From Elusimicrobia bacterium RIFOXYA2_FULL_50_26 (lineage in GTDB: Bacteria; Elusimicrobiota; Endomicrobiia; Endomicrobiales; XYA2-FULL-47-53), in the NCBI GenBank assembly GCA_001800355.1, contig MGVF01000088.1, positions 1 through 34,998 on the forward strand: a stretch of 34,998 nt of DNA, read 5' to 3'. This document shows positions 14,301-34,998 of the stretch, in pieces. Within the stretch, counting starts at the first letter, position 1. Every line of letters begins with the position of its first letter. Made by a program: the position numbers and the translations under genes. The notes below the pieces were generated by a model. That model was not told the DNA's origin and searched no databases. It saw nothing but the letters and a program-made list of their open reading frames with translations.

Positions 14301-14547
14301 AAGCGGACGTTAATTCTTTAAGGCCGTTAACCTCGGAAAATACTTCTTCCATGGGATGGGTAACGCCTTTTTCGACTTCGGTGGCAGGTATGCCGCCGCG
14401 AAGCCGCGTAATGACGCTGATTTCGCCTGTTTCAAGATTGGGATAGAGTTCGAGGGGTATACGCGGAAAGCTGACAACGGCAAAAACTACTATTGCCACG
14501 ACAAGCATCAGTGTGGTGATTGGCCGTTTAATGCCGAGTTCTATCAT
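11386..14547 (-). CDS. RND efflux transporter, first subunit of the operon
   Basis: 1053 aa. It starts MIELGIKRPITTLMLVVAIVV, the standard RND first helix. Helix 4 has LSGLAMGLGNLMDNAIVIMG (one Asp plus Asn), and helices 10-12 include MMILGGTVVNASILLVERI and TVMGGMFSGTLLTLFVIPVSY. The two large loops predict a periplasmic porter/docking domain. The C-terminus carries about 60 extra basic residues after the last helix, rich in Arg and Lys, which the sister gene lacks. It shares family features with the downstream RND protein but is clearly divergent, so this is not a recent duplication. Its ATG overlaps the adaptor stop (ATGA) and its own stop overlaps the next ATG, implying coupled, balanced synthesis. 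Confidence 0.94.
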   Translation of the reverse strand: MIELGIKRPITTLMLVVAIVVFAVVSFPRIPLELYPNLETGEISVITRLRGGIPATEVEKGVTHPMEEVFSEVNGLKELTSASRESESVIVLRFHPGTNLNFATLDVREKLATIRHRLPREVEKPVIAKFQQFDTPILIIALSSESLSPERLRERAEEKIKERIMRINGVANIEIGGGQERKILIDIDNARLLAYSLPIMSVVEMINVNNISVSAGNVEKMGERYIVRATGEYSAVKEIENTGIGVTPQGSIIRLSDIATVRDSYYEPSSFARLNVKPVVSMYIQKESEANTITVGNKISSLVEELSNQYASDMTMTIVKNDAEFIQKAITSLKISVFEGAILVTAILFFFLRNFKTIGIIVTTLPISLLLSAVLMYFGGLSLNIMTLSGLAMGLGNLMDNAIVIMGNLSYHSKRSPGMDRETMVVKGTSELMMPIIASTLSTIIVFLPLVFLDPEIKRMYVPFGLAIGISLCASLFGTLIFVPPLCVRVKGAFDFETPRWYVVIEKMYTKALKSVFRRQRLFIAGTILLFIASIFIFMTRDSEFAEAGEANTFRIGIQFPPGMRIERSDDIVKKIEKTLLSYPSVDRISSRVEKLHTFIEVKMKQDKKKVMDEFRARFNEFSPAFIYYQESQDIASREVYVDFYGYDYAVLKQIAFAASGRLSQVRGLSDIKIRMREDEPEINVVASQNRLSLFGITTLYMANTLHNQLRGLVATHYRSEGKEIETIARLTPGTVRSSHELPFLRFVTPSGQVVALNQVGDISQVTTAQEIWHKNKKRFIQISANRNKLGLTAAVSKMRQVLSGINFPKDYTYNFSGDYEKTMQNRKDFSLALVLTIILIYLNLASLYESYSQPLLIMLALPLSSIGVAFTLAILRKPISLGVWIGMMILGGTVVNASILLVERINLSRAEKKRTLRAIMESCRERLRPVLMTSLNNIVGLIPLVLSRDEAAGMWRSLGLTVMGGMFSGTLLTLFVIPVSYLIMESFYLNRKTIVPSTIAGIRNSLPAFIRLLSHVRLKNLKKFKPAVARLLPKLKSGFHIKIKWPLKRTYP

Positions 14548-15779
14548 CTCACGGTTTCATTGCCGGCTGGATTGACTTCTGTAAACTGCACGGGAAGCCC
14601 GTCGGAAAGCTGCGTCTGCGTTTCAACAACTACAAGTTCGTTCTCATTCAGGCCGTCCTGGACTATAACCGACTTTGAGACGGTCTGGCCTGATGTTATG
14701 GAACGCAGTTCCACCATGCCGCGATTGGGGACGGACGGGTCCGGCTTGACTATCGGGACAAGCCTGGTTTCGTTGCCGAGGCTTATAAGGCTGTCCTGCG
14801 GGATGGTGATAGTATCAGGCATTTCCATCAAAAATATATCTCCGCGGGCAAACATGCCGGAACGAAGCTGGCCGTCGTCGTTGGGTATTTCTATTTTCAC
14901 AATAGTGGTGCGCGTTTTTTCTTTTACCGTCGGCGCTATTTCCCTGACCTTGCCCCAGAAATCCTTGTCCTGGTAAGCATCACAATTTATTTTCACTTTC
15001 ATGCCGATCTTTATCTTTTCCACGTCTTTCTCAGGGACGTCAACCTCAAAATTCACTTCGCCGCCACTGATAAATTTCGCCACCACGTCGTGCGGAGTTA
15101 CAAATTCGCCGGCCTGTATAAGCCGCTCTGCAAGCACGCCGCCCGACGGCGCAAACAGGTTGGTTTTCTCAAGGTTGGACTGCGCAAGCTCAAGCTCCGA
15201 GAGCGCGGCCTCCATGCGTTCCTTCGCGGAGTCGGTCTCATACTTGGCTTCCTCGAATTTAGTCTCCGAGATGGCTTTCATCTTAAACAACTCGCCGTAC
15301 ACCTTCATGCGCTGCGCGGCCGAGAAATACGACGCCTTTTCGCTATTGTACTTGCTTTTTGCGTATGACGCCTTCGATAGCGAATCTTTTGGATCAAGCG
15401 ATGCGATAATAGCGCCCCTTCCTATGCGCGCACCCTCGGAAAAATTATAACGCGCAAGCGTGCCTTCGATTTCAAAACGCATATCGTTTTCAATCGTGCC
15501 TCGAATCGTTCCCATTACCGCGTATTTCTCGGTAAAGTTTTCCTTTTTTATTCTCTGAACGCGCACCTGGGCAACCTGCTCCTGCCGTTCATCACCGCCG
15601 CCTGAAAAAAATAATTTCCGCACAACAAAAAAACCGCCTCCAATAAGTATAATCGCCGTTACAACGATAAAAACAATTTTCCCTACCGGCAATTCAAATT
15701 CTTCGTCGCCCGCAATTCTATACATAATGCGATCATGCCAGTCAAGCAACATATCTTTTATACGGTACCAAAGATTCAA
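14544..15779 (-). CDS. RND periplasmic adaptor (membrane fusion protein)
   Basis: 411 aa from a TTG start. The frame is open further upstream to 15833, but GGAGG sits 8 nt before TTG 15779 and directly after the TolC stop, whereas the upstream ATG would overlap tolC by 40 nt. It has an N-terminal anchor helix at about residues 32-55 (GKIVFIVVTAIILIGGGFF) rather than a lipobox. A beta-barrel/lipoyl half (YAVMGTIRGTIENDMRFEIEG) is followed by a coiled-coil hairpin (about 115-190), the second lipoyl half (TNLFAPSGGVLAERLIQAGE) and membrane-proximal beta domains. It links the TolC channel to the RND pumps encoded on either side. The long cytosolic N-terminal segment is slightly unusual. Confidence 0.92.
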   Translation of the reverse strand: MNLWYRIKDMLLDWHDRIMYRIAGDEEFELPVGKIVFIVVTAIILIGGGFFVVRKLFFSGGGDERQEQVAQVRVQRIKKENFTEKYAVMGTIRGTIENDMRFEIEGTLARYNFSEGARIGRGAIIASLDPKDSLSKASYAKSKYNSEKASYFSAAQRMKVYGELFKMKAISETKFEEAKYETDSAKERMEAALSELELAQSNLEKTNLFAPSGGVLAERLIQAGEFVTPHDVVAKFISGGEVNFEVDVPEKDVEKIKIGMKVKINCDAYQDKDFWGKVREIAPTVKEKTRTTIVKIEIPNDDGQLRSGMFARGDIFLMEMPDTITIPQDSLISLGNETRLVPIVKPDPSVPNRGMVELRSITSGQTVSKSVIVQDGLNENELVVVETQTQLSDGLPVQFTEVNPAGNETVR

Positions 15780-15793
15780 GGTATTATCCTCCG

Positions 15794-17200
15794 TCAGCGT
15801 AATTGCAACATCGTAAGGCGTTCCATCTCGCATACAGCCAGGTAGTTTGTAGCAAGAGACCTCATGTAAGACATCACCGTTTCAGCATATTTGTAAACAC
15901 CATCCATAACTTCAAGGGTTGATATCTCGTATAATTCGTTGCGCTTGCGCATAACTTCAAGCTTCCGCTCGCGCAGGCGTATCTCGTCTTTCGTAGTGCG
16001 CGCATTCCACAGCGACTGCTGGTACTCGTTATAAAACTTATCGAATTCATAGATAGCCCTGTTAAGCGAATCACGGTATTCTATCTTTGAAGTCATTATG
16101 CCTATAGCGCTTTCCTTCTGCTCTACAAAATACCCCAGATCGTCGAATAATGACAGTTTTATTTCATTGGTTGTGTTATCAATGCGACGGGAGAGATCAA
16201 TAATTTCCTGGGGATTTGCATAATCCTTGGCGCTGCTTACTTCAAGCGAGTTGCCCCAAAGCCCCCATGAAACGCGGCCTGAAATGCTCCATGCTGTCGT
16301 CAGGCTGAGCGGCTGCGTAACAAACACTTCGCCGCTCTGGCCGTAATAACCCTCGGCGTATAGTTTCGGCAGTGTTTTTGCGCTTGTAATTTTCTTTTTC
16401 TGTTCGTTCATTTCTATCATGTTCAGGTTTGTGCGCGCATCCATGTTGTTTGTCGTAACAAAACGGCGCGCCTCTTCATGCGTGTACGAAATATCTTCCG
16501 GCGGCGCAAGGGAGCCTATGTCAAACGGGGCGGCAATTTCATCAAGGGCTTTTATGTCAACGGTGAATAATAGTTTCTTTTCCGAAAGCTCGGCGTTCAT
16601 TTTCGCCGAACGGTACATGTTTTCCACCTTGTCCCTGAAGTTTCTTCCTTCCTGCAGGTCAAGGTCCGAAATCGCCTTAACGTTGAATTCCAACTGGCTT
16701 TTCTGCTGCAGGCGCTGGATATCGTCAAACGTATCCTTAAGCCGTTTAAGTTCGGAGCGCGCCGCAAGGAATTCGTAATAGGCTGTTTTTATTCGGTAAT
16801 ACAGATCTTGCCTTGTCTTGGTAAGGTTTAACTTTGCATTTTCGCGCAACAGCTTATCGTAACGGTATGACGCCCTTAGCCTTCCGCCGTCGTACAACGG
16901 CTGGAGGGCGCGCACCCCAAGCTCTTCCGACTGGTACTCATCGGACTGAACCTCCCCGTTTTCAAGCGTTCTAAGCGCCTTGCCCCGCGCCGTTTTTCTC
17001 TGCAGGGAGATGCCGGGTAGGAACGCGCGCCCGGAACGCGTAATGCGCAGGGAAGCCGCATTAACCTGCTCTTTTGCGGCCAGCAGCTTTTTATCCCTGT
17101 TTTCGCCAACTTCCAGGCAGGCTTTCAGGAATTGATCACCGGCAAAAACATTACTGCAAAATAACACTATGATCGCAAACAGGGAGATGGTTTTACGCAT
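15794..17200 (-). CDS. TolC-family outer membrane efflux protein
   Basis: 468 aa. Signal peptide MRKTISLFAIIVLFCSNVFA is cleaved near residue 20. The mature part has the two-fold alpha-helical hairpin organisation of TolC-like channels: long heptad-rich segments at about 30-60 and 125-215, repeated at about 245-290 and 345-445. Stretches such as ARSELKRLKDTFDDIQRLQQ and SQLEFNVKAISDLDLQEGRN are typical of the family. It would form the outer-membrane exit duct. ATG 17200 has GAGG 6 nt upstream. It is the first gene of the efflux operon, and 14 nt separate its stop from the adaptor start. Confidence 0.92.
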   Translation of the reverse strand: MRKTISLFAIIVLFCSNVFAGDQFLKACLEVGENRDKKLLAAKEQVNAASLRITRSGRAFLPGISLQRKTARGKALRTLENGEVQSDEYQSEELGVRALQPLYDGGRLRASYRYDKLLRENAKLNLTKTRQDLYYRIKTAYYEFLAARSELKRLKDTFDDIQRLQQKSQLEFNVKAISDLDLQEGRNFRDKVENMYRSAKMNAELSEKKLLFTVDIKALDEIAAPFDIGSLAPPEDISYTHEEARRFVTTNNMDARTNLNMIEMNEQKKKITSAKTLPKLYAEGYYGQSGEVFVTQPLSLTTAWSISGRVSWGLWGNSLEVSSAKDYANPQEIIDLSRRIDNTTNEIKLSLFDDLGYFVEQKESAIGIMTSKIEYRDSLNRAIYEFDKFYNEYQQSLWNARTTKDEIRLRERKLEVMRKRNELYEISTLEVMDGVYKYAETVMSYMRSLATNYLAVCEMERLTMLQLR

Positions 17201-17242: not shown

Positions 17243-17325
17243 GTCATTGCGAGAAGCTTGGCGACGAAGCAATCTCGTCGTTTTGATACGAAACAGCAAG
17301 ATTGCTTCGCTTCGCTCGCAATGAC
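17243..17325 (+). repeat. Palindromic intergenic repeat, copy 4 (subfamily B)
   Basis: 83-bp core from GTCATTGCGAG to CTCGCAATGAC, with the inner sequence GCAATCTCGTCGTTTTGATAC shared with the copy at 26261 but not with copies 1-3. The left arm AACTGATGTTACACAG matches the left arm of copy 5; the right outer arm is not preserved. It lies within the 222-bp lipoprotein-tolC gap, where it would be part of the tolC leader RNA. Confidence 0.92.
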
Positions 17326-20340: not shown

Positions 20341-23300
20341 TTACTGAGATTTGAACAATTCGCCTGTAAGCCCTGCACTCAATAGTTTTTCCCGCTTTTC
20401 CTCCCTTTGAACTGTTTTGCGTTCGGCATGTGCGAGGATTAACGCAACAACGGCGTTTATCGCCGCGGGATCCCCTTTGCGCGCGCAAAGTTCCTTTATT
20501 TTAAGGTTCAACCGGCCATAAAACACAACCGGCTCAACGTCATTTTCCGACAGAAACGCTTCCGGCGTAACAACCAGGCCACTGGCCCCGGCGCCGCCTG
20601 ACTTTTGTGCAAATAAATTCTGCCCCAGAATTACTTCAAGCTGGTGATCGGCAAGCTCAACCGCGCCAAGTTCTTTGATGGCAAGCAGTCTTTCGACTAC
20701 CGCTTCCGAGAATGCCGCCTGGATGGCGGGAATATCATTTTCCCTGGATGTTCCCTCAAGTTCAACTTGAATTTTTTCAAGATAGAGATTTACACACCCG
20801 ATGTTTACATCTTTCAGCGCATTGACAATATGGCCATCCGCAGACGCATTTAACAGACTCTCCAGGCTCGCATCAGGGATGTTGAGTTTTTTGCGCTCTA
20901 GCGCATGAGCCGCCTTTTGTACGTGAGCGGTATCCATCGTTTCCGGAGTATACATGCTCAATATCATTGTTCTGAACATGCCGGTTATCCCGACAAGCGC
21001 TTCCACGTCTCTTTCACCCCCGTTTAAAAGCACGGCAAGTTCGCTTGCCATGAACGTTTTACTGACATTATTCGAACGTATAAACTTTTGTCTTAACTGT
21101 TCAGCAGCGGAACAATCGTCTATTATCTCTGATATTTCTTTATTTCCATTCAAATCATACATGTGAAAAAAACCGGCCACTTTAATTGAATGATATGGAA
21201 ACCCGATTTCAGCGTAATGTCCGCTGTTAAGGTTAAAAGTGCCCTGTGTCATATTGATACATATTTCCCAGCCGTTAACTTGCGCAAGCCTCGCAATTTT
21301 CATGGAAACTTCCTGTCCCAGGCGATCAATTACGGTATCATCAATTATCAACCGGCTCATTCCAGTATTAGCAAGGGTGTGAATGCTTCCCAATAGCTTG
21401 CTTTCAATATCATCCGCTTCCATGCCGGCATCAAGGTCGAGATAAATGCTGTTGGATCGCGCCATGGCGAAGCTGTCGGCATTACGCATGGCTACCATGT
21501 CGCCAAGCATACTTTTAAGCTTGTCTTTATTGATAACGCCATTTCCGTCAACAAAGTAGTGCCTGCCTGCCTTAAGGCTGCCGTCGCGCGCATAGGTTAA
21601 TACCTTATTGTGGGATGACCAGTCAATTGTTATCCCGGGCTTGAATTTTCCGGCTTTCAGATCTACATCCAGCGAACTTAAAACATTTTTTAAGTTTTCG
21701 CTTAACCTGTTGCTGCCGGGCAACGATCCTCTCGGGGAAATCGCATCATTTACGGCAGCGGAAATATTGCGCATATCAGCGCCATCGGCAAACAATACCA
21801 AAGCGCCCGGCATGGCGCTGGCGCGTAATTGCCTGCCGTCAACGTTTATATCCAAGTCTTTCCACTCCAATGACTCCATATCTTCAAAATGCCTGTCAAA
21901 AATATATATGTTAGTGTGCAGGTTTCCACTGTCATCCGACCATAATGCACCCAATTCATTTATGTTTTCAGCGACACTTCTCACCGATGTAATTCCATAA
22001 TGATAATCCAAATATACATCCGGCTCAGGATTGCCGCTGCGCGCCGCGTCTTTCCGTGCAGTAAAATCGCGCGGATTCCTGCCTTTTTTGTCCCGATTGC
22101 TCAACAACAGGACAGTTTTTACGATCCACATTTCGTAACGCGACCAGATCCAGAATGCGCTATTAACCAGAAGGGGCGCCACAAGAATGGGCGGCACGGA
22201 ACCGCTAATCATATTTATTAATAAAGCGCTGAATGCAATCATTACGGAACTTACTATAACAGCGCCTTCATGCTTCTTAAAAACGAACGCAAGATTAAGC
22301 ACCCGCATCATTTTGAAGCCGTCATCGCCTAACCTTTTTGATAATAGCAACAGGAAAAGATTTAAAATTTTCACTGACACATGCCACAAATTATATATAA
22401 TCGCACTTGCCATTATGAATAAAACTGCATTTGAGCCAAGCAAATCCTGGACGCCGGGCATCCCTGGCGCGACATCAATGCGGAATGCCGCAAATAACTC
22501 CGGCACATGACTGAAAATACTCGAACCGCCAATAAACAACAAGGACATCCATAATGTAGCCATGGCAAATCTGGCGATGTACCGCGTTAAATTAACCGGT
22601 GGAACCAATTCATTATAATAGCCGGCAAAGAACGATTCTATCGCCGCGGCAGTAAGCGCAGGCCTCTCATGCAACCCGGCACCAGGCATGGCGCGGACAA
22701 GCAATGAGGCGATGGCCATGGCAAGTGACGGGATAAAAACATCGAACCGTTTTACGTCTTCGGCCATATGCGGCACAATAAAGCCAAACTCCCTGTCTAT
22801 GTCAACGAATACGGGCAGCATGCTATCGGGATGGTTAACAATCTGCCGTTGGCATGCATGCCAGTAATTAAACAGTTCATTCTGCGATATATCACCGCGC
22901 GCAAGGCGGTTTTCGCCAAGATAATAATCCAGCGCCTTGTAATGCCATGAGCTGCTTACGTTAAGAGCAAGGTATTCGGCAACCTCGTGTCCCATCAAGG
23001 CGATGCGTTCGCCGTCTGAACTGCACCTGGCGCATCTCATTATTACAGTACCGTCAACATTCACCTCGAACATACCCGCAATGCCCAGTCCGTCTTTGGT
23101 AAATATAACATCAGCATCGGCCTCGCTTATAATTACTTTATCCACCGGAAGCTTTCCTTCCTCTTTCCTAAGCTTGTTCCAGTAATAAATGAGTTGGGAA
23201 ACCAGCGTGTTAACAACGGCAACTTCACCGGGAGTATAAACATATCTTTTTCTTATGCCCGCCGCATCAAGCGTTACCCGCCTGAACATAAGGATGGCTA

Positions 23301-26196
23301 TCCTGGATGCGCTTTCGTTCAGGCCACCCAACCACGGCATAAATTCCAGCGCAGTTATAAGCACGTTCCTGCTAATACCGAACATCCCGCCTGTAGCGCC
23401 ATCCGGGTTATCATTCTTAAAACAGAGCGTGTTTTTTTCCAGGTCTATAACCACATCACCGGTATCAAGATATTTTTCCAACCTTGTTTTTACCTCATCC
23501 CGCAACGGCACCCCTTTACGCACGTATTCTGCCAATTCATCCGAAACAGGCGATGAATCCGGAATTTTTGCAACGCTGCCGTTAAACTCTTTTGTTACGC
23601 CGCGGATTTCGCTGTTCTGGTAGTTGTAGTAATATGGCGTGCCTTCAAAATAATTCAGGTATTTTTGAGGGTAGCCGGCGCTATAACCCGCGAGTTCAAT
23701 TAACTCTGAATCGCTCAATGCCCCGGCATCAATATCGTAAGTGCTGAACCTTTTTATCTGCCACCCGTTCTCAGCCTCGCTGAGCCATTCGCCGCTTGCC
23801 GTAGCAAACGCGCGCAATAACAGGTCCGGCCTTGTAACAATGGCTACGCTGGGCTTAACTTTATTTCCGAAAATGGCGGCAATGGGTTTTTTGCTGAACA
23901 AGAAATTCTCCAGTGTTTTTGTTGACCCTTTGCCGTTCTTTTTTTCTTCTATAGCGGTAACCTTCACGCCTTCAATTCCGAATATAATTTTTACTACGTC
24001 AGCCTCGGTAATTTTTTTATTCTCTTCGCTTATCTCATTATTTAATGACTGTAACATCCACTCTCTGCTTCGGGAATCAATGCGATCGCCATAGCGTTCA
24101 ATTGTTCTTGTTATCAAAGGCGCCGTTCCGCGCCCCCAGCCGCCCGCGACAACCACTGGCACTTCCCTGCCTGAATTTTCCTTTATCGCCTTCCATTTTT
24201 TTGCAAAATTTACGTAAACCCTCATGTCCGGCTGCCCCAGGACAAGAAATACGTCCGGCGGGTTTTGGATAAAATCATCGCCTTCGGTTTCTGATAAGAG
24301 GTTAATATATCCCTGGACAGCCTGCACAAGTTCATTGCGAATTATAGTTTTTAACGGAAGCAAAAGGGATGCTAACGTGTCCTTCAAGGAAGCGCCGTCA
24401 TGAGTGTGTTGCCGGATTTCAAACCTGTCTTTGCCGTTGTTGAAAAGCGTTATCTGTTCGCCTCCCAGTTCTATGCATATCTGATCTTCGCTGACAGAAA
24501 TTACTTCTACATTTTCAGAACCGGGAATTAATGCCAGGGAACCTGTGATGCCTGTAAAATGCACTGCCGTCAGGCCGGTATATTTGGGGGCAGCAGACTG
24601 CTTAACTGCCTGCATAGCCGCCTGCTTTTTTACAAGTTTTGAGTACATAACACCGGCGGCTGCGGCATCCGTTGTTACATTCGGGGTAATGGTTATATAA
24701 GGTATGTTTCGTTCACGCAGAAGCTTGTTTATTCCTTGAGTGTGAAAGCCGCCGGTTACAAGCAATATAACTCTGGAATCGCCCAGCAACCGGTCGGCGT
24801 CGTCATATTGTGCCGCTTCAACCCCGGCCATGCGGACGTTAGTCCCGGCAATAAGCTCCGGCATGTTCTTTATGAAAATTTCATTCCGGGTTTCGTTAGC
24901 TTTATAATAATCATTTAAAAGCTGAAAATCCGCGGTAAGCGCCGTGATTTTATCCACGGGAGCGTACTTAGCCCAGATGTTGCGGAACTTGCCGAATTTT
25001 GCATTAAAGTAAGCGTAATCCTCGGCGGATAATTTTGCGGAAAGATAATCGCGGAAACAGTCAAAAAAATCTGCGACGAATGAAACTTCAACCTCGCTTA
25101 CGTCCGCCGATAGCGCAATCCGTATTTGCCCTATCAGCCGTCTTTCCTCATTAATAAGTTCCAGCGGATTAATATCGCTGTTTTTTTCCGTGAAGTCCAG
25201 AAAGCGGGACAGGTCGGGGTATTTCATGATGACCGTTCGAAGCGTTTCACGGTGACGAATCGCCGCAAGTTGAATGTACAAATCGTCAGTTTTCGTAAAA
25301 TTTGCTGTTTTCTGCAATAATGAATTGTACTGGGAGTAAGTAACGTTCGATTTGATATCTGCGATGAATTGCTGCGCCTGGCGGGGTATTTTATTGTAGT
25401 TTAATTTTTTTGCAATTTGCGTCAACTCTATTTGCGACAAAATATTCGGGTAATCCGTAATGCTGATGTTATGCATATCGCCGAAATCATGCGCGTCTGC
25501 ATTGATTCGTGCGACGTATCCGGCCAGCAGGGCGTAATACTTGCCGTCATTTATCCGCCCCAGTTTACGGCGTGATATGATGTCATTAAGTTTTTTGTTG
25601 GCAGGCCCTATGAACTCTGCTGTAATAAATCCGAGGTCCCGCTCAAGTTCCGCTATTTTTGTTCCGAAATATGCTCTTTTTTCAAATATCGTGTCTAACC
25701 GCGCAATGTTTTGGCGGTAAAACGTCTCATCCTCAAGACCGCGTAACAAATCATGCCGGTTGGATGCCACGGAGTAGTATTCCGCGCCGGTTAGCAACCC
25801 GCTATTCAATAATTCATCAGCTATTTCCGTTGCCCTGGCGCGGTCGGATGTTATTTTGTCCATCCATGCGGTGCTGATTTTACCATATCCGCCTTCGACA
25901 TAAACCTCGTCTAAACCGTACTTATCGTCCAATGCGGCCAATATTTTTGAGATATTGCGCTGGGTCTCGGCATGACAGTGGAGATCCTGGATATTGACGA
26001 CAAGAGTATTCGAGGGGCAGTGGCCGGGCCACAAACCGGTGATCCTGCCGGCAGTTGGCGGTATTATCTCGTTTGCGGCCGTCCGTGCGGGGTAAGCAGG
26101 CGCGGGTCCGGCGGTTACCGAAGCGCGCAGCGCTTCCCCGAATACTGATGACAACATAAAGACGGCCAATGTAATTACAGCTATGCTTTTTTTCAA
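20341..26196 (-). CDS. Giant multidomain envelope protein (ChaN/Tiki-like, YdcF-like, membrane block)
   Basis: 1951 aa from a TTG start with AGGAG 11-12 nt upstream. Signal peptide in residues 1-25. About 60-540: ChaN/TraB-Tiki-like domain (IQDLHCHAETQRN at 69-81, VYVEGGYG near 100, LLVTGGFHTQGI near 480-490). About 640-800: YdcF/DUF218-like fold (VFLVLGQPD, VVVAGGWGRGT, GKGSTKTLENFLFS, VTRPDLLLRAF). About 1000-1150: zincin-like segment with HEVAE at 1070-1074 in MGHEVAEYLALN. About 1205-1385: four or five membrane helices. The remaining roughly 550 residues are mixed alpha/beta and unrecognised. Domain names are from motif resemblance; overall function is unknown. The large N-terminal part should lie outside the cytoplasm. 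It follows an even larger gene that shares the HEVxE...ALN motif. Confidence 0.88.
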   Translation of the reverse strand: MKKSIAVITLAVFMLSSVFGEALRASVTAGPAPAYPARTAANEIIPPTAGRITGLWPGHCPSNTLVVNIQDLHCHAETQRNISKILAALDDKYGLDEVYVEGGYGKISTAWMDKITSDRARATEIADELLNSGLLTGAEYYSVASNRHDLLRGLEDETFYRQNIARLDTIFEKRAYFGTKIAELERDLGFITAEFIGPANKKLNDIISRRKLGRINDGKYYALLAGYVARINADAHDFGDMHNISITDYPNILSQIELTQIAKKLNYNKIPRQAQQFIADIKSNVTYSQYNSLLQKTANFTKTDDLYIQLAAIRHRETLRTVIMKYPDLSRFLDFTEKNSDINPLELINEERRLIGQIRIALSADVSEVEVSFVADFFDCFRDYLSAKLSAEDYAYFNAKFGKFRNIWAKYAPVDKITALTADFQLLNDYYKANETRNEIFIKNMPELIAGTNVRMAGVEAAQYDDADRLLGDSRVILLVTGGFHTQGINKLLRERNIPYITITPNVTTDAAAAGVMYSKLVKKQAAMQAVKQSAAPKYTGLTAVHFTGITGSLALIPGSENVEVISVSEDQICIELGGEQITLFNNGKDRFEIRQHTHDGASLKDTLASLLLPLKTIIRNELVQAVQGYINLLSETEGDDFIQNPPDVFLVLGQPDMRVYVNFAKKWKAIKENSGREVPVVVAGGWGRGTAPLITRTIERYGDRIDSRSREWMLQSLNNEISEENKKITEADVVKIIFGIEGVKVTAIEEKKNGKGSTKTLENFLFSKKPIAAIFGNKVKPSVAIVTRPDLLLRAFATASGEWLSEAENGWQIKRFSTYDIDAGALSDSELIELAGYSAGYPQKYLNYFEGTPYYYNYQNSEIRGVTKEFNGSVAKIPDSSPVSDELAEYVRKGVPLRDEVKTRLEKYLDTGDVVIDLEKNTLCFKNDNPDGATGGMFGISRNVLITALEFMPWLGGLNESASRIAILMFRRVTLDAAGIRKRYVYTPGEVAVVNTLVSQLIYYWNKLRKEEGKLPVDKVIISEADADVIFTKDGLGIAGMFEVNVDGTVIMRCARCSSDGERIALMGHEVAEYLALNVSSSWHYKALDYYLGENRLARGDISQNELFNYWHACQRQIVNHPDSMLPVFVDIDREFGFIVPHMAEDVKRFDVFIPSLAMAIASLLVRAMPGAGLHERPALTAAAIESFFAGYYNELVPPVNLTRYIARFAMATLWMSLLFIGGSSIFSHVPELFAAFRIDVAPGMPGVQDLLGSNAVLFIMASAIIYNLWHVSVKILNLFLLLLSKRLGDDGFKMMRVLNLAFVFKKHEGAVIVSSVMIAFSALLINMISGSVPPILVAPLLVNSAFWIWSRYEMWIVKTVLLLSNRDKKGRNPRDFTARKDAARSGNPEPDVYLDYHYGITSVRSVAENINELGALWSDDSGNLHTNIYIFDRHFEDMESLEWKDLDINVDGRQLRASAMPGALVLFADGADMRNISAAVNDAISPRGSLPGSNRLSENLKNVLSSLDVDLKAGKFKPGITIDWSSHNKVLTYARDGSLKAGRHYFVDGNGVINKDKLKSMLGDMVAMRNADSFAMARSNSIYLDLDAGMEADDIESKLLGSIHTLANTGMSRLIIDDTVIDRLGQEVSMKIARLAQVNGWEICINMTQGTFNLNSGHYAEIGFPYHSIKVAGFFHMYDLNGNKEISEIIDDCSAAEQLRQKFIRSNNVSKTFMASELAVLLNGGERDVEALVGITGMFRTMILSMYTPETMDTAHVQKAAHALERKKLNIPDASLESLLNASADGHIVNALKDVNIGCVNLYLEKIQVELEGTSRENDIPAIQAAFSEAVVERLLAIKELGAVELADHQLEVILGQNLFAQKSGGAGASGLVVTPEAFLSENDVEPVVFYGRLNLKIKELCARKGDPAAINAVVALILAHAERKTVQREEKREKLLSAGLTGELFKSQ

Positions 26197-26221
26197 AACT
26201 AAACTCTCCTGTTATTGCAAA

Positions 26222-26390
26222 ACTCCCCTCTTTTTTTGATTAACTGGTGTTACGCAGCGTGTCATTGCGAGGAGCCTTCGCGACGAAGCAATCTCGTCAT
26301 TTTGATACGCAACAGCAAGATTGCTTCGCTTCGCTCGCAATGACAGTAAATTTGCATTTCTTGCGTAACATCAGTTATTCAGAGGGGAGT
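26222..26390 (+). repeat. Palindromic intergenic repeat, copy 5 (subfamily B, complete with long arms)
   Basis: Core 26261-26344 (84 bp). Beyond the core, arms AACTGGTGTTACGCA (from 26242) and TGCGTAACATCAGTT (to 26376) pair at 14 of 15 positions. Outside these, ACTCCCCTCT (26222-26231) is the exact complement of AGAGGGGAGT (26381-26390). The whole roughly 169-bp element is one imperfect long palindrome filling the gap between the two giant genes. It might act as a terminator-like or processing structure, but no U tract follows on the minus strand. Confidence 0.93.
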
Positions 26391-26412
26391 ATAACCCTGC
26401 AACGTTAAGGCA

Positions 26413-29400
26413 TTATCCCTGGGTTCGCAATGTTTCGACGAGAGCGGGAAGTATAATATCCCGGGCAGCTTGTGCGGGCTTGCGGACGCGGCGTTCCGCA
26501 GCGAGCGCGAACATTCGCGCGGATTCGGCCAGCGCCCAGCCAGCCGTTTTGTCTTGATTGCCCACTATGTCCGGCAGGGTGCCTGTTTTCTGAAGGGCGT
26601 CAATCTGCGGCTGCATTATCGAACGTATCTCGGCAAGCACGTACTCTGCCTTATTGTCAGCATCGGCGTGACGGACGGACGCAACAGCTTTGACAAATAA
26701 TACCATCGGCACCAACGCCTTAAGTCCGGATGTTACAGGCAACGCTTCGTAAGCGGCTCTTGCCTTTTCGATACTTAATGAACCAGACTTGCCGGTGATC
26801 ACATTAATTATTTCCCTGAAATAACTGCCGCTGATGTCCTCGCGTTTATTCAACGATGTCGCTATATCGCCACTAATTTTATACATAGCACTGTCTTTGG
26901 CCGTTTTAACGGCATCGTCGAACGTGCCATGGACGTGAGCGGCCAGCAGTATGGCGCGGAAACGCCTGTTATCCTGTTCACTGACAAATTTTTCCAACGC
27001 GGAGTTCTTTTCGTAATACCTCGCCTCAACTACGTGTTCCATGGCTCCGCGAACCAGGTTGAACAGCTCAACATGGCTTCTTACAATATCAGCGGATGAA
27101 GCATTGGCGGGCATTCTGTTTTTCAGCAACTCAACCTGCCTGGCCAGGGCAACCCAGTTTCTGTTTTCCACTACATCCGTAAGGCGCCCCAACATGCGCA
27201 AAGTTTCATCAAACAGGCGGCCGTTTGCCAATCCCGCTGCCAGGGGGGCGAGTTCATCATCGTTGCATTGCTGGATATAACGCCCGGCTTCAAGCACCGC
27301 GCCAAGCCCGCGACCGCTGAAGGTTTGTACAGTTTGTCCGTTTCCGTCAACCAATGTAATATCGCGCGACTTGTCAAACCATGTGAATTCGGCGGCATTC
27401 ACTTTTTCAGGCGCGACCTTGTAGCCTTTTTGACAGGCCAACTCACCCACCTCTGCAATACTCTTAGGCCTGAGCGCACGCACGCTCGTCAATTCGATTA
27501 TAAAATCGCGGTAGACATTGTGACTGGCGTGGCCGCTGGCCAGGTCTCTGAACTGGGCATCATTTGCCGCGACGCCGCTGGCAAGATCGGGCATGGCAAT
27601 AACGCTTACGTTTTTAGAGGCGTCAACAAAACCTTCTATATTTTTTTTGAATTCTTCGACGTCATCTCCGGCAATGACCGTTTTGCCTTCTTCTATGTAC
27701 ATCATGCGTACAACGTTTTCCCCGGCAACCTGCGACGGGGCAATTGTTCCGTAAGGAACCCTGTCAACAAAAGCAATATCCAGCCGGTCGGCCAGCCCAT
27801 GCGCCTGCCGGGCAAACAATGGCGATGGGATAATGCCGACTGTGTCTTTCCCGAGCTTGCCGGCCAGGCGCTCTATCCACTGTTCAGGCAGCGTTGATCG
27901 CGCAGACAGGTCAAGGTAAACCCTGCTGAATCCAAGTTTAATCCATGCATCTATCTTGTCCTCTAATGCTCCGAGGTTTGCATCATCGTTTACAGTCACG
28001 TTAAACGTAACCTTGACCTTGTCTTTAACCTGCGAATGGCGCAGAACCTCTTTGAATTGGAATTTCGCGGTTTCTTCGAGGAAAGCACCGAGGTCGCCTG
28101 TATACCCGCTATGCTTGTAAGCCATATGCGCTTTGACAGCATCCCTTTCATCACGCTCACTTATGTTTTCTTCCATATGGGCGGCTTCGGTGACTATAAC
28201 ATGGCGCCGATCAACACCGTCAACCCTTGACCAGTCAATGTAGCGCACCAGCTTGTCAAATACGTTGTCGAGCATTACGGTATCCACGTTCATTTCAGAC
28301 ATCTTTATTATAAATGCCACAAGATCAGTAATCTTTCCTTCACCCAGGTCTTGTGGCCTTCCCACCTGGCGAAGCTGGCTGATATTCTTGTAAACCGCAA
28401 CGCCATAAGGCAGTTTAACTTCACCACCCGCCTTTTCTTTCCTTAGCGGCAGGTAATCTTTCCATATTGCTTCTTTTACGCTTTCTTCAACGTCGCCGCT
28501 AAAATCTATGAGGTTTTCGGCGCGATGCAACGGCTCACGTTTTTTCAAGTTATCGGCGGCACGCACAATGTCGTATTTGCTGAATACATCCTCGCTTAAG
28601 CGCTCCACATCGCCGGATGATCTAAAGCGCACTTCAAAAATAGTTTCTGCCAGCAACTGGTGATTTTTTGCAATATCCTCATTGGAAATAAGCCCGGCAA
28701 AACCGTTGCACTGCAGGATGTCGGGATTTATTTCGCCGGCGTACGGGAGTCCCATTTCACCCAGCTTCTCTTTAACGGTGAGTTCCCCATCTTTAAGCAT
28801 TACACCTTCGCGCATGGAGTTCATTATAACAAGCACTGCCCCGCGAAGCGCCGCATCGCGGTTTGCACCCCGTGGCAACCTGACCTGCAACCTGATAGCG
28901 GAAGCGCCGTTGTCAGCCGGCTCTGCTTTGGCATAGACAGGCACGGTAACGGTTTCACCATTTTCCAGGGTAATATTCTCATCATAAAGATATATGCCCT
29001 CGGGATCAACGCCGTCAGCAAGCACGGCCAGGTGCAAGGCGTTCATACCGATGGCGGCATACGCTTTTAATTCATCAATATCCGCATCGCCTATGCTCCA
29101 GACGGTTTTGCCGGCAAGCTCGTGGATGCCCATCTTATCCAGCCAACTGCGGCCGGCAAAGGCTTCGGCAACGCTTTCGGCAACATTGTTTACGGCCTTA
29201 TGCGGCATTACGGACTCTGCCGCCACGCTTGCCACGGCGGCGGGCTCTACATCCTTAATGGCGCCGGCGATAGACTGCACCGTGATCAACGACCCGCCGC
29301 CCTCTGCCTTAATGCGTAGCATGGCGATAAGATCCTTAATCAGGCTGTTAAATCTGGCATTCTTAAACTCACGCGGCTCGTCGCTGGCCTCAAGCTGCTC

Positions 29401-32400
29401 AAACCAGGCCGCCAACTGATCGCAGCACGTGCGCCCCTGGAAAAGAGAGTTCATGAACATGCCGTAATCGCTAAGGTTATTATCGGCATGACGGTTCCAG
29501 TGATGATCATTGGCGACATCACCGTGGTTACGCTCAATCCGCTGCTTTAGTTCATAGAAACCTTCCAACCCATGCGATATGCCAAATCCATTAAAATCAA
29601 ACGTGTAATGCGGGTTTGACAGAATGGTGTTGGCCACGCTCGCAGTTACGCTTCCTTCCACGCTCCCGATCAGGTTGCGGTCGTATGAAGCGCCCTCGTC
29701 AAGCAGAACACCTTCAAGCCGTTCTACAAGGCCGGACATAAACTCCGTGAAACGCCGGTCAACCTTAACGGGTGTATTCTGGGGGTCATTCCTGCTTTCC
29801 CTGAGAGTATCGAACCAACGCGTAACTTCGGCCAATGCCCCGGGGTTGGATTCAAACATGTATTCAACGTACCAGCGGAATGAAGATTTTTCCCCTTTCC
29901 TGTCTTCCAGATGGTGCCTGCTCCATAAACCGATGTTTGAATCTATTCCGGCTTCACCATTCTCTATGACAATTTTCCTGCGGATGAAACCTGCAAGGCC
30001 GGGTTTTGCAATACCATTTCCGTTAAAACTAAAACAGCTGCCGTCATACAAAAGTTTTTTAATAGATTCTTTGCTCGCACCCGTTTTCGTGGCGTTGACA
30101 ATCGCAGCCATTGCCTTTTCATCTTCCCCGCGCTGCTTCTTTTGGCGCGCGAGTATACGCTGATATTCCGTCAAATATGAGGCGGAGGTATTCATGTAAT
30201 CCAATATACGGCTGAAACGCACGGATGTTGCGCAATGCATGTAAAAATCGCTGCGGCGATCATTCCACACGCTTACCGCTTCCCTGATTGCATCAAGGTA
30301 ACCGTTTGGCGTATCGCTGTGCGCTATTACAGTATTCCCGCGCCCGGGACGCTTCCAGTCAACAGGCCTGCCCTGGGCCATGATAGTGCCTTCCGGATAT
30401 ACAGGGCTTATGACAAGCGCTCCGTTAGCGGAAAAAGGCACCTCGGTATATTCCGACGCGCCGGTATCCCTGGTAGATGGCAGGATGCCCATATCGCAAG
30501 CGGCAAGCATTGCCAGCTTTTGCTCCTGTACTGCACGATCAACAAAAATAAATTTCCCGGCATATCCTTTTGCATTCAGTTCGCTTTCCCAAAGCATAAG
30601 GCGTTTTGCCGTGGCCTTGCTTTCGTCAAACCCCTGCACGTTGCCAAAATATAGTATTTGAACGCCATCCTTGAGCATTTGTTCGATGTTTTCATAGGTG
30701 AATGCGGTCGTTAAACCTGTTTTCTCATCTACAAGGCGGCCATAGTATCCCAGAGTTATTTTTTCCGTGTCAACATTGGCGTAGCCCCCAATCTCTATCA
30801 TAGCGCGATTAATAATTTCATCATCTACTACACCATCGCGTTGTAATTTCTCCAGGAACGAAAGTATCTTGAAATCGTTAGCCCCTTTTACCTTTAATGA
30901 ATCCACTACCGAGCTGATTTTCTTATCCCTGAATTTAATAAGATTCTCTTCCAACCCGTCATTTCGCGCTTCGCGCACAATTGAATTGAATATTCCATCA
31001 TCCAAACGCTTTTCCCGGTTAATCATATCATAGTTCATGAGTATGCCAACTGCCGTGTTGTCAGCCCTTACGTCGTCAGCAATTGAGGCAAGCGCCTCAG
31101 ATATGGTTTTACCTCTAAGATTATTAAGAGTTATGGATAACTCAATACCGTTTGCAGTCATCATCATGGAATCATTGAAGTATTGTTTACAAACAGGCTT
31201 GGAAACCTGGATTTGTTCACTTGAAGGCCGATATAAATCTACTGTTTTTCCATATTTTTCTTTCAATGCTTTATGAAAATACTTGGCCATCAATTTCAAA
31301 TCCGTGCCATTGGTAATACCTGTCAGATGAGTCCAGCCTTTGTCAATATGCCTCATCAGGCCGCCATGAATTTTGCTTACGCCATTTGCCCAGCCGGCAC
31401 GCACGGCGGCGCTTGTCCAGTCCCAGAAACCTATACGTTTGAACATTGACCAGTATTTCTTGTCAATTCCCAGCCACCGCAAATATTTTTTTACATCTTC
31501 TTCAGTACGTGTACGACGGTTGCCTATGGTATGCGTGGTTTCATATGACAAAATGCCACTGACAATGGGATCATCAGGATACATACTTGCAAGCAATGTA
31601 TGCAGCGGGCCATTCTGTCCGTCGTTACCATGCACTATGGCCGGGTTAAAGTCCGCACCCCATTCCTTATGACGCTTAACCTCAAGATCATAAATAAGCC
31701 TTGCTATCGGCTTGTTTATACCACCGGTTGACTCTTCCCACGACGGGTTTTTAGAACTTACTTCGTCATTTACCTTGCCGTAATCGGTTTCACGGTAGTT
31801 ATACGTCATCCGCGTATAGAAGCTGTCTCCATCTTGTTCAACTACGCCGCGGTAGCCGGATCTCTGAACATCTTTTACAAAATGCTTGGGCATTCCGGTA
31901 TCACTGTCCTGCCCCACAAAAACTTCACAAAATATTTTTTCTTCACTGCCATCGTCATTAAATACACTGACATCGTATCCCATCAATTTTTTCAACCCTT
32001 TGACTCCCTCATGCTCATAGTCTAGAGGCGTGGGATTGCCACTGGCATCAAGCTTATCGCGGCGAAGCATGTATTTAGGCTCTATGGTGGTGAAACCGCA
32101 GCGAATACCCATATCATTTGCCATCTTTATAAGTTCGTACATTCCCTTTGCATGGTATGTCATCACGGGACCCAAGCCGCCGACCCAGAAAGTATTTTCA
32201 GCAGCAACGTAATATATCATGCTGCCTTCCAGCAGAGGCGCCTGCCGCTTAACCCAGTTGCGCAAATAGTTATTAAGGTATTTCTTTATATCTCGTTCGA
32301 ACCCGTCTCTATCAGCCGCTTCCATAAGCATAATTCTATCGAAAAGCACGGCATAAGCCTTATCTTTAAGAAACACGTTCTCGTTTGCTATAAGTATGCG

Positions 32401-34998
32401 TAAAAAGTCTGTCTCCTGCTCTTTGGTAAGTTCCGTAACCGACTGCAGAACCGGCCATGCGGATTCAACGGGGTTAAGCAACGATTCACTCTCAACCTGT
32501 TCGGAACAAATCCTCATGAGACTGATAAGCGAATCCGGCGAGAAAGTACCGTCGCCTGTTATACATGCTTTTAACCGATCTGATATAAATTCCTGATCAT
32601 TATCACGAATCGCCCGGGATACATTCGCAACAACATTCTCGTCGGCTTCCAACACATTGGCGAGAAGACTAGGCTCCCGAGGGGCGGCAACCATGTCAAC
32701 GGCGGCTTGTTGGACGGCGGGGATGGCGGCTGCCGACGCTGCCAGGAGGCGCATTCCGTTTATCGCATCCCTGGAACCATTTGTGTCGTAATGCAGGAGG
32801 AAGGCGTAAATGCCTTCGGGCTTAAGGTCCCCGCTTTCGATATATTCAAGGATTATGTTTTCCAATGCCGGCGTAAGATTGTCCGGCAGGTTTTTTACTA
32901 GTTTTCCAAATGTTTTATGGCGGGATGACCTGGTACGTAGAACTTTGCGGTGCGCCTCACGTATCATTTTGCGCACCTGCAACTCGAAAATCAATTCGTC
33001 AATTCCTGCATCCGTAAACCCGGCAGCCTCGCTCAGGCCTGGCGCGGACATTTCGCCGGACTGTTCGCCTGAATACAATTTTTCAATTTTAGTTATATGG
33101 GTAAGGATGTCAACGATCTCAATTCCTTTTTCATGCAATGCGTCCATCACTTTGCCTAGAACATAATCGGAAATAGAGTTGTCTTTTAACTTGTCCGTTA
33201 TAAGTGAACGGATATAAGCTTTATCGTAAAGCTTGCCGGAACTTTCTTTTATTGACGGCAGCGGCAATGAAGTTGCGTAATCCAGAAGCAGCTTCTGACT
33301 GGCAAGCATTTTCTCAAGCTCGGTTAGCGATTCCGGCGGCTGACTTGCAAGATGGCGGATATAGTTATGGAAATTTTCCTGCTTGCGGCCGCCCCTTTTG
33401 CTTATGTGCATCTTGCCAAGGTAACCGGAAAACAGTGCGTAAACACCGTTAGGTTCAACCGTGCCGCGTGGCTTGTTTAATGCCATGAACTCGAATACTT
33501 CATGCCGGGCAAGAAGGGTGAAGAACTCATCGGCGTTTAATCCTTCGGGCAGGCCGTCTTTTTCAATTTTATCTATAAAATAGGCCGATGGGCTGAAGAA
33601 AATAAATTCCGCCTCTCCACGGCCGGCAACCCGTCTTGTTGTATTACCAATCCCCATGGTCGCAAGCAGGCACCGTTCTTTGTGGGCTGAAAGGATACTT
33701 CTATTTAAAATTGTAAATACAATCTCCGCATCATTGCGAACGCCAAGCTCATGGTAGTATTTTCCTTTCAGAATCTCGAGTTCTCTGCGTAAAATGCGTG
33801 TCCATTCCGCATCAAGGGGGCTTTCATTTGCAAGGCTGCCGCTTCCGATACTAAGCCGCATGACATCCAGCGCAGGTTGTGAAAGGTACTCAGCCAGGAA
33901 TGGAAAGCTTGATCTTAATTGACTGACAAGCTCGTTTATGCCGTTCCCCATGCCGACTATCCGATTCACACGCTTGTTCTGAACCTCTGTCCCGGCAGTC
34001 TGCCGCATTTCCCTGCGCTTGAGATAATCAGCGCGGAAGGCATTAATATCGTCAATTTTCACAAATGACGCGCCGTTAACGGTAACGATGTATTTATCTC
34101 CGACAACAGCGCGCCAAAATTCAAGCGCATCCGCATCGGCAATTTTGCTGGAGCGCAACCTGACGATTTGTTCCGGATAATTATAGTTAATCACAGCCTC
34201 TTCAAACAGTTTCCGCCCAAGCCCGGAATAGAGGTATTCGGCCTCGGTAAAAATAACGTCTATTTCCAGGTAATCCCCGGCTTTATCGCTATCCTTATAT
34301 ATTTGGACGTACCCTAAAGTATTTTCGTCAGTATCAATAGCTTCGAAACCGTATCTGCCTGCGACCGTATCAACAGGCCCCGGAACATTGATTTTTATAG
34401 CGTTAATATCAAACTCAAGATAGAAAATAAGTTCGCTGTCTTGCGGGAGAAATGGCCTTAGCGTTTCGGCGATGCCGGCGCGGGTAAGCCCTGCTTCCTT
34501 GATAAGTTTCGTCAGCATAAGCTTGTCATGCCGCAGCGATTCCGTATCCATCCCCGCCTCGTGGCGAAGCTCATGTGCGATGCCGGCGACAAAAAGCGCT
34601 TTCGCGGCATCTTTATCATTGGCCGCAATTTCAAGGAATGATTTATTTATGCCGATTAGTCCGTTTTGGCGGTGGTCTTCAAAGAGGTATTTAGAGGAAT
34701 TTTTTTCAAGGAGGGTAAGGAGAATGTTTTTATCTGTAATCTTACTCACATCAACAAGCCCCTCGGCAGCAAGCGCCGCCATCGCCTTTGAAATAAGCGC
34801 ACCCAACTCGCCGTCGGACACGCCCATGGCCAGCTTCAACTCATTCTTATCTTCCGTCGTAAGCTTTATCAAATCGTCATAGTGAACACCATTAACGTCA
34901 ACCGGCACACCCTGCGCCACAGAATTTTTGACCGACTTAACCTGTTCCGCGTCCCCCGCACTAAATTCACTACGATTCCCCTGGAGTTTCATCAAGCT
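26413..34998 (-). CDS. Giant multidomain protein with GNAT-like, zincin-like and glycogen-synthase-like modules (5' end beyond window)
   Basis: At least 2860 aa. No stop lies between residue 1 as numbered here (TTG 34995) and the window edge, and there is no signal peptide, so the true N-terminus is probably outside. Modules: HExxH motif IAHELRHEAG (HELRH 141-145); GNAT-like segment about 200-310 (YSGLGRKLFEEAV at 256-268); second zincin-like motif RHEVFEFMALN (HEVFE 498-502); helical region 620-920; GT-B glycosyltransferase about 925-1610 resembling glycogen/starch synthase (WVGGLGPVMTYHAKG with GGLG at 939-942, IVHGNDGQN near 1121, YYGRLVDEKTGL near 1417, PSTRDTGASEYTE at 1506-1518, then NGALVIS). 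A module is repeated at about 1655 and 1800. The C-terminal 950 residues are unrecognised. Substrate unknown; a glucan is a guess. Confidence 0.85.
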   Translation of the reverse strand, partial: SLMKLQGNRSEFSAGDAEQVKSVKNSVAQGVPVDVNGVHYDDLIKLTTEDKNELKLAMGVSDGELGALISKAMAALAAEGLVDVSKITDKNILLTLLEKNSSKYLFEDHRQNGLIGINKSFLEIAANDKDAAKALFVAGIAHELRHEAGMDTESLRHDKLMLTKLIKEAGLTRAGIAETLRPFLPQDSELIFYLEFDINAIKINVPGPVDTVAGRYGFEAIDTDENTLGYVQIYKDSDKAGDYLEIDVIFTEAEYLYSGLGRKLFEEAVINYNYPEQIVRLRSSKIADADALEFWRAVVGDKYIVTVNGASFVKIDDINAFRADYLKRREMRQTAGTEVQNKRVNRIVGMGNGINELVSQLRSSFPFLAEYLSQPALDVMRLSIGSGSLANESPLDAEWTRILRRELEILKGKYYHELGVRNDAEIVFTILNRSILSAHKERCLLATMGIGNTTRRVAGRGEAEFIFFSPSAYFIDKIEKDGLPEGLNADEFFTLLARHEVFEFMALNKPRGTVEPNGVYALFSGYLGKMHISKRGGRKQENFHNYIRHLASQPPESLTELEKMLASQKLLLDYATSLPLPSIKESSGKLYDKAYIRSLITDKLKDNSISDYVLGKVMDALHEKGIEIVDILTHITKIEKLYSGEQSGEMSAPGLSEAAGFTDAGIDELIFELQVRKMIREAHRKVLRTRSSRHKTFGKLVKNLPDNLTPALENIILEYIESGDLKPEGIYAFLLHYDTNGSRDAINGMRLLAASAAAIPAVQQAAVDMVAAPREPSLLANVLEADENVVANVSRAIRDNDQEFISDRLKACITGDGTFSPDSLISLMRICSEQVESESLLNPVESAWPVLQSVTELTKEQETDFLRILIANENVFLKDKAYAVLFDRIMLMEAADRDGFERDIKKYLNNYLRNWVKRQAPLLEGSMIYYVAAENTFWVGGLGPVMTYHAKGMYELIKMANDMGIRCGFTTIEPKYMLRRDKLDASGNPTPLDYEHEGVKGLKKLMGYDVSVFNDDGSEEKIFCEVFVGQDSDTGMPKHFVKDVQRSGYRGVVEQDGDSFYTRMTYNYRETDYGKVNDEVSSKNPSWEESTGGINKPIARLIYDLEVKRHKEWGADFNPAIVHGNDGQNGPLHTLLASMYPDDPIVSGILSYETTHTIGNRRTRTEEDVKKYLRWLGIDKKYWSMFKRIGFWDWTSAAVRAGWANGVSKIHGGLMRHIDKGWTHLTGITNGTDLKLMAKYFHKALKEKYGKTVDLYRPSSEQIQVSKPVCKQYFNDSMMMTANGIELSITLNNLRGKTISEALASIADDVRADNTAVGILMNYDMINREKRLDDGIFNSIVREARNDGLEENLIKFRDKKISSVVDSLKVKGANDFKILSFLEKLQRDGVVDDEIINRAMIEIGGYANVDTEKITLGYYGRLVDEKTGLTTAFTYENIEQMLKDGVQILYFGNVQGFDESKATAKRLMLWESELNAKGYAGKFIFVDRAVQEQKLAMLAACDMGILPSTRDTGASEYTEVPFSANGALVISPVYPEGTIMAQGRPVDWKRPGRGNTVIAHSDTPNGYLDAIREAVSVWNDRRSDFYMHCATSVRFSRILDYMNTSASYLTEYQRILARQKKQRGEDEKAMAAIVNATKTGASKESIKKLLYDGSCFSFNGNGIAKPGLAGFIRRKIVIENGEAGIDSNIGLWSRHHLEDRKGEKSSFRWYVEYMFESNPGALAEVTRWFDTLRESRNDPQNTPVKVDRRFTEFMSGLVERLEGVLLDEGASYDRNLIGSVEGSVTASVANTILSNPHYTFDFNGFGISHGLEGFYELKQRIERNHGDVANDHHWNRHADNNLSDYGMFMNSLFQGRTCCDQLAAWFEQLEASDEPREFKNARFNSLIKDLIAMLRIKAEGGGSLITVQSIAGAIKDVEPAAVASVAAESVMPHKAVNNVAESVAEAFAGRSWLDKMGIHELAGKTVWSIGDADIDELKAYAAIGMNALHLAVLADGVDPEGIYLYDENITLENGETVTVPVYAKAEPADNGASAIRLQVRLPRGANRDAALRGAVLVIMNSMREGVMLKDGELTVKEKLGEMGLPYAGEINPDILQCNGFAGLISNEDIAKNHQLLAETIFEVRFRSSGDVERLSEDVFSKYDIVRAADNLKKREPLHRAENLIDFSGDVEESVKEAIWKDYLPLRKEKAGGEVKLPYGVAVYKNISQLRQVGRPQDLGEGKITDLVAFIIKMSEMNVDTVMLDNVFDKLVRYIDWSRVDGVDRRHVIVTEAAHMEENISERDERDAVKAHMAYKHSGYTGDLGAFLEETAKFQFKEVLRHSQVKDKVKVTFNVTVNDDANLGALEDKIDAWIKLGFSRVYLDLSARSTLPEQWIERLAGKLGKDTVGIIPSPLFARQAHGLADRLDIAFVDRVPYGTIAPSQVAGENVVRMMYIEEGKTVIAGDDVEEFKKNIEGFVDASKNVSVIAMPDLASGVAANDAQFRDLASGHASHNVYRDFIIELTSVRALRPKSIAEVGELACQKGYKVAPEKVNAAEFTWFDKSRDITLVDGNGQTVQTFSGRGLGAVLEAGRYIQQCNDDELAPLAAGLANGRLFDETLRMLGRLTDVVENRNWVALARQVELLKNRMPANASSADIVRSHVELFNLVRGAMEHVVEARYYEKNSALEKFVSEQDNRRFRAILLAAHVHGTFDDAVKTAKDSAMYKISGDIATSLNKREDISGSYFREIINVITGKSGSLSIEKARAAYEALPVTSGLKALVPMVLFVKAVASVRHADADNKAEYVLAEIRSIMQPQIDALQKTGTLPDIVGNQDKTAGWALAESARMFALAAERRVRKPAQAARDIILPALVETLRTQG

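Follow-up and report, generated by a model that had tools for sequence, protein, structure and literature searches.

A conserved HExxE...H domain with a predicted zincin-like fold recurs in giant proteins of the Elusimicrobiota

Do two neighbouring giant genes of an Elusimicrobia bacterium carry one and the same domain, and what might such a domain do inside so long a chain? Giant bacterial proteins are frequent in several uncultured phyla and are almost wholly unannotated. Giant ORFs with few annotated domains are reported from Omnitrophota, Elusimicrobiota and relatives (PMC10066038, PMC11573180, PMC12057145), those of Elusimicrobiota being described as poorly characterised (PMC11573180), and the available portions of these publications describe neither a recurring metallopeptidase-like domain nor a shared N-terminal module. 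The window, by which we mean the whole stretch of 34,998 nucleotides that was analysed, is the full length of C88, one of 138 contigs in a 2.01-Mb genome. Two giant genes lie on its minus strand, P0002 (20341..26196), an open frame of 1951 aa with a TTG start codon and AGGAG upstream, and P0001 (26413..34998), an open frame of at least 2861 aa whose 5′ end lies beyond the contig end. Both are thus very long frames with few known domains, as giant ORFs are defined; neither has a Pfam match above the family cut-off, and NCBIfam yielded zero matches for both.

A sequence-only reading of 20341-34998, which covers both entire genes and is wider than the domains proper, had pointed to a similar motif in each protein. 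Both motifs are present: in P0001 HEVFEFMALN starts at residue 499, numbered along the open frame (33475-33504, minus strand; residue 498 when numbering starts at the first possible start codon), and in P0002 HEVAEYLALN starts at residue 1070 (22960-22989, minus strand). Composition alone would give HEVxE[FY]xALN 6.5e-7 times in P0001 and 3.7e-7 times in P0002, and bare HExxE 0.31 and 0.13 times, respectively. Single-sequence searches and direct BLASTP were too weak to connect the two copies, the sole BLASTP hit between the proteins being weak, local and at the motif site (25.8 bits, E 0.09), and a comparison of small profiles of the two types reached only P 0.003. Larger profiles confirmed the shared domain by HHalign, since the A-type (the P0001 type, 46 domains) matched the B-type (the P0002 type, 4 domains) over 89 colinear columns (probability 94.1%, E 1.3e-7), and a match survived removal of the two most bridging sequences (80.9%, E 1.2e-5). 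Among the places reached when 149 related genomes were searched, one (G007:C66) was matched from both P0001 and P0002 queries.

Membership of P0001 in the family is strong, because a profile lacking the window genome and all B-type copies scores it at 44.0 bits (4.9e-12). The same profile scores P0002 at only 9.9 bits (E 0.14), the top of 400 shuffled proteins reaching 5.7 bits, and the membership of P0002 consequently rests on its own small subfamily. P0001 and P0002 very probably carry homologous copies of one domain of about 125-195 residues. In P0001 the profile match and an AlphaFold2 model place the domain, predicted zincin-like, at residues 382-578 (33265..33855, minus strand), with HEVFE (H499, E500, E503), conserved in the family, at 33490..33504 and H544, a proposed third ligand in an FH motif, at 33367..33369. 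In P0002 the same kinds of evidence place it at residues 1002-1126 (22819..23193, minus strand), with HEVAE (H1070, E1071, E1074) in the translation at 22975..22989 and H1113, likewise a proposed third ligand, in a WH motif at 22858..22860; both third positions fall in a conserved column.

The domain is not confined to the window. A profile of nine copies (A1) found it in 26 of 340 Elusimicrobiota genomes and a profile of 49 copies (A8) in 35 of the 340, including 26 of the 191 well-completed ones; 28 of these 35 belong to the Endomicrobiales (83 genomes of the order), one to the same class and six to other parts of the phylum. With A8 the 41 genomes of genus g7, mostly of 0.2-1.4 Mb, gave no copy. 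The A8 search listed 93 places, a few of which, at E 0.002-0.01, are doubtful, and for 88 of the 93 the frame is 1000 aa or longer (median frame 3285 aa, maximum 11894). A search of the window genome for more copies, as the sequence-only reading had advised, gave one further copy, of the P0002 type, on contig C126, and this is the closest relative of the P0002 domain (34% identity, E 2.5e-33); that of the P0001 domain is found in another genome (G005:C16). A scan of genome contigs with two A2 peptide patterns, an insensitive method, gave four loci, all from Elusimicrobia, Endomicrobia or Endomicrobiales, and scans of viral contigs with A2, A3, A4 and A5 gave no relative. Two loci with weak or false matches (L004 and L037) were excluded from the tables, and a match from the first phylum search (G028, a 484-aa frame, E 0.008) was dropped as it reads as a ribonuclease E-like protein.

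Scans of the 49 domains against Pfam and NCBIfam gave scattered sub-threshold matches to unrelated families, and a sequence search of the PDB gave no relative (best E 1.8). The HExxE...H domain is absent from Pfam and NCBIfam as searched and marks a family new to both; the literature searched, chiefly non-subscription, yields no description of it.

The residue counts are based on a profile derived from A8, with 123 aligned rows reduced to 87 distinct copies. Conservation runs from a strand and SxxPxLI through a D- or E-containing loop, an ALATL-like segment and an LYIH-like strand to L..L..HExxEyxAL, with an H directly preceded by F, Y or W about 20-60 residues later; the stretch between the motif helix and the last helix is missing in some subfamilies. 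HExxE is kept in 72 of the 87 distinct copies, and 68 of those 72 also hold the later His. In the 15 copies with a broken HExxE the later His is present in nine and missing or gapped in six, so that co-loss is only partial, and the association between the two (Fisher p 0.0014) is uncorrected for relatedness. No residue is better conserved than the first Glu, kept in 121 of 123 rows, and the later His fills its column in 110 of the 123. Broken copies occur mostly in relatives outside the Endomicrobiales, with some also in G001, G002, G003, G005, G007 and G047, and their first His is often replaced by R, K or W. Both window copies have the full set, H499/E500/E503/H544 and H1070/E1071/E1074/H1113. 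The domain had previously been called degenerate, a description which fits those other copies and not a family that as a rule conserves HExxE; the idea of a metal-binding, zincin-like domain fared better, as the conserved HExxE and the downstream His suit a metal site and the predicted fold agrees. We consider it probable, from this conservation pattern, that the residues form a metal site with ligands H-E-H. Two further observations were set aside as evidence. The invariance of H, E and E in alignment A8 is true by construction, because the copies were cut out with HE..E and two lacking it were dropped, and the counts of HE..E (62 versus 12.5 expected) and HE..H (16 versus 2.0) in the giants are no independent test, because the sample is redundant and was chosen for HExxE.

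Structure prediction was carried out with AlphaFold2 on residues 390-580 of P0001 and 985-1145 of P0002, using a shared alignment of seven sequences. The P0001 model (pLDDT 82.4, pTM 0.82) has a helix at 5-29, strands at 36-39, 57-68 and 72-82, the motif helix at 100-118, a helix at 129-143 and a helix at 151-163 on which H544 lies (position 155 of the model). For P0002 the model is poor (pLDDT 65.1, pTM 0.60) and shows a helix, three strands, the motif helix at 77-95, another helix and a helix at 121-137 with H1113 at position 129. The two models share their order of elements, a likeness which is not independent because both were built from the same seven sequences. The strands that had been noticed ahead of the motifs are also recovered, FIFFSPS (residues 465-471 of P0001) within strand 72-82 of its model and GTVIMRC (residues 1049-1055 of P0002) covering strand 66-71 of the other.

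Foldseek searches of the PDB with the P0001 model gave no hit at E <= 0.001. The first row of the list was an unrelated GPCR complex and the top row with a real probability was YbeY 1oz9 (probability 0.60, E 0.33), and the zincin matches were not taken as proof. On re-alignment the P0001 model matched YbeY structures (1oz9, Z 5.3; 1xm5, 4.9; 7y7o, 4.4), selecase 4qhi (4.4), abylysin 4jiu (4.4), 2ejq (4.4) and 3e11 (4.3), and its list also held unrelated folds, namely baculovirus capsid chains (5.3-5.4), level with or ahead of the zincins, and, lower down, Hsp90 C-terminal domains (up to 3.7). The list for the P0002 model is headed by an M. tuberculosis regulator (Z 5.1-5.2), which we take to hold an ImmA-like domain, followed by selecase 4qhg (4.3), jannalysin 4jix (4.0) and YbeY, PprI and Ste24 (3.8-3.9), with 6mdw, a DPC protease by its title, within Z 3.8-4.3. 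Fold scores of Z 4-5 are weak and within reach of unrelated folds. What speaks for a zincin-like fold, predicted with good likelihood, is that both lists bring up one and the same superfamily and that the conserved residues are placed on the helices where they would be expected.

What the giants themselves are made of bears on the role of the domain. P0002 begins with an N-terminal module of about 510 residues (24592..26196, minus strand), delimited by a family profile, with a signal peptide-like start region (26119-26196) and invariant Q-D-x-H, E-G and G-G-x-H. The module heads 22 of the 27 domain-bearing frames whose start lies in the fetched DNA, five being without it. Searched for by itself, it turned up in 69 of the 340 genomes, which gave as many as 80 first-look candidates each, four of them scored, and at seven places in the window genome, and it mostly heads long frames. 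One of 24 members matched ChaN/Tiki at E 0.001, too weak for naming. The module may serve a large family of variable giants as their shared means of export or anchoring. P0002 further has hydrophobic segments at 1258-1345, and a simple scan of P0001, the N-terminus of which is missing, gave no signal peptide-like or hydrophobic segment. As to the earlier suggestion of an envelope-associated system common to both genes, P0002 has the signal peptide-like N-terminus and hydrophobic segments, P0001 does not show them in the part at hand, and adjacency is weak evidence for a single system, the closest relative of each domain lying elsewhere.

P0001 also contains a second, separate zinc-peptidase-like domain (34381..34887, minus strand), recognised from its family and alignment, with a canonical HELRH at 34561-34575. 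Its family (NGFIGVN...HExxHE) is found in long frames of 18 of the 83 genomes of the order, and a scan of P0001 gave it no Pfam match; a kinship with the HExxE domain was considered, but hhalign (P 0.006, probability 5.9%) did not establish it. Across 13 frames of an orthologous giant in family f6, the N-terminal module is retained together with two HExxE domains whose positions vary little (about 700-890 and 2370-2900). In other giants the domain is accompanied by matches to the families of phosphofructokinase, PPDK, CofD, GFO/IDH, radical SAM, Dus, Maf, alpha-amylase or SNF2. Metabolic or housekeeping enzyme families of this kind lie inside the giant frames at L055, L059, L060, L061 and L042, some of which have a signal peptide-like start.

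Several other features of the window were recorded. A 25-base sequence has two exact intergenic copies, at 17300-17324 and 26319-26343, where shuffles give an expectation of 0, and the region around the second (26250-26350) looks palindromic. At 2262-3437 an alpha/beta hydrolase gene beside a MetW gene, metX-like by position, ends early, and a frameshift or assembly error is suggested because the reading continues in another frame. Downstream of the giants, 8252-17200 holds two genes for RND pumps along with membrane fusion and outer membrane genes. The giant closest to P0001 (L062) adjoins two RND-like frames on the other strand, and the proximity to RND genes at both loci may be coincidence.

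We propose, with a probability of roughly 0.45, that the domain is a metal-dependent peptidase carried in giant exported proteins, where it cuts the giants or their neighbours in maturation. The first helix, the three strands and the HExxE helix would build the site; one metal ion would be held by the His and the second Glu of HExxE together with the His of the later helix (H499, E503 and H544), and the first Glu (E500) would act as general base. The ligands H-E-H would be those of gluzincins in another order. The peptidase would travel inside the exported giants and act there on these chains or on adjacent ones. That it is a peptidase at all is, by analogy, an evenly balanced call. Self-processing is proposed because PVC-metallopeptidases probably process large exported proteins, and on this analogy action on the giants themselves is the likeliest single role, tentative as it is. 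More speculatively, and with lower expectation, the giants may be exported polyproteins in which a common N-terminal module and enzyme-like modules are combined with built-in H-E-H zincin-like peptidases that cut the chain into functional parts.

The main alternative to self-processing is a metallopeptidase acting in trans, whether against prey, host or competitor proteins or to acquire nutrients, with the giant chain as its carrier. Such a role agrees with the signal peptide-like segment at the head of the shared N-terminal module, and giants of sister phyla are discussed as predatory surface proteins in the available parts of two reports (PMC10066038, PMC12057145). Yet the domain is interior to the chains, not terminal like a warhead, and is often present twice or more, and some giants hold enzyme-like modules besides; we hold a trans role to be unlikely. 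Of similarly low probability is a non-catalytic module, metal-stabilised or metal-free, with a structural or binding function on a zincin-like fold. This would accommodate HExxE in place of HExxH and the partial loss of the motif in the 15 broken copies, some with R or K at the first His, a replacement of the sort that one study (PMC3650047), in its accessible text, describes for zincins whose sites are broken. It sits poorly with the full residue set in 68 of 87 copies and with the first Glu as the most conserved residue of all, since a metal site of purely structural function could do without it. A metal-dependent hydrolase other than a peptidase, for instance with YbeY-like nuclease chemistry, is improbable: YbeY structures stand high in the ranking of the P0001 model, but minigluzincins rank about equally high. 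The YbeY motif, H-x3-H-x5-H, is moreover absent from the domain. A chance resemblance of two helices, to which the marginal BLASTP value alone lends itself, has a negligible probability against the profile-profile match, the colinear strands and helices and the 87 distinct copies.

A peptidase within the giants remains our preferred reading, and a recurrent domain with a proposed active site offers a handle for biochemistry and an early clue to what the giants do and whether they are processed. One source names HEXXE as the motif of the self-cleaving metalloprotease CLCA1 (PMC6851300), CLCA being treated elsewhere as an HExxH family with substitutions (PMC3650047), and in one fungal study HEXXE is given as an M35 signature (PMC7215534), as far as the available text of these sources goes. 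The metalloprotease domain of CLCA, for which HEXXE and, in CLCA1, self-cleavage are reported, shares HExxE with the domain described here. This resemblance is one of motif, and CLCA_N was not among the best 25 of the 44 Pfam families matched by the 49 members. PVC-metallopeptidases of polymorphic toxin systems are likewise zincin-like, reside inside large exported proteins, comprise three strands and three helices and are thought to autoprocess large toxin proteins, according to the portion of the source at hand; their signature given there, HExxHxxQ...E, is missing from both window domains (PMC3482391). The best structural matches were mainly minimal zincins of about 105-150 residues, and the minigluzincins (abylysin, jannalysin and selecase), 2ejq, 3e11 and YbeY have the same order as that predicted here, a helix, three strands and the motif helix, the minimal zincins likewise having a following helix with the last ligand. 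The metzincin signature HExxHxxGxxH is not present in the P0001 or P0002 domain sequence. Canonical gluzincins use H, H and E as metal ligands, the third being a Glu on the helix after the motif. Minigluzincins accordingly combine HExxH with a third Glu, whereas the present family combines HExxE, in both window copies as in most others, with a conserved His in the later position; if the site is catalytic, this order of ligands would widen the known variety of zincins.
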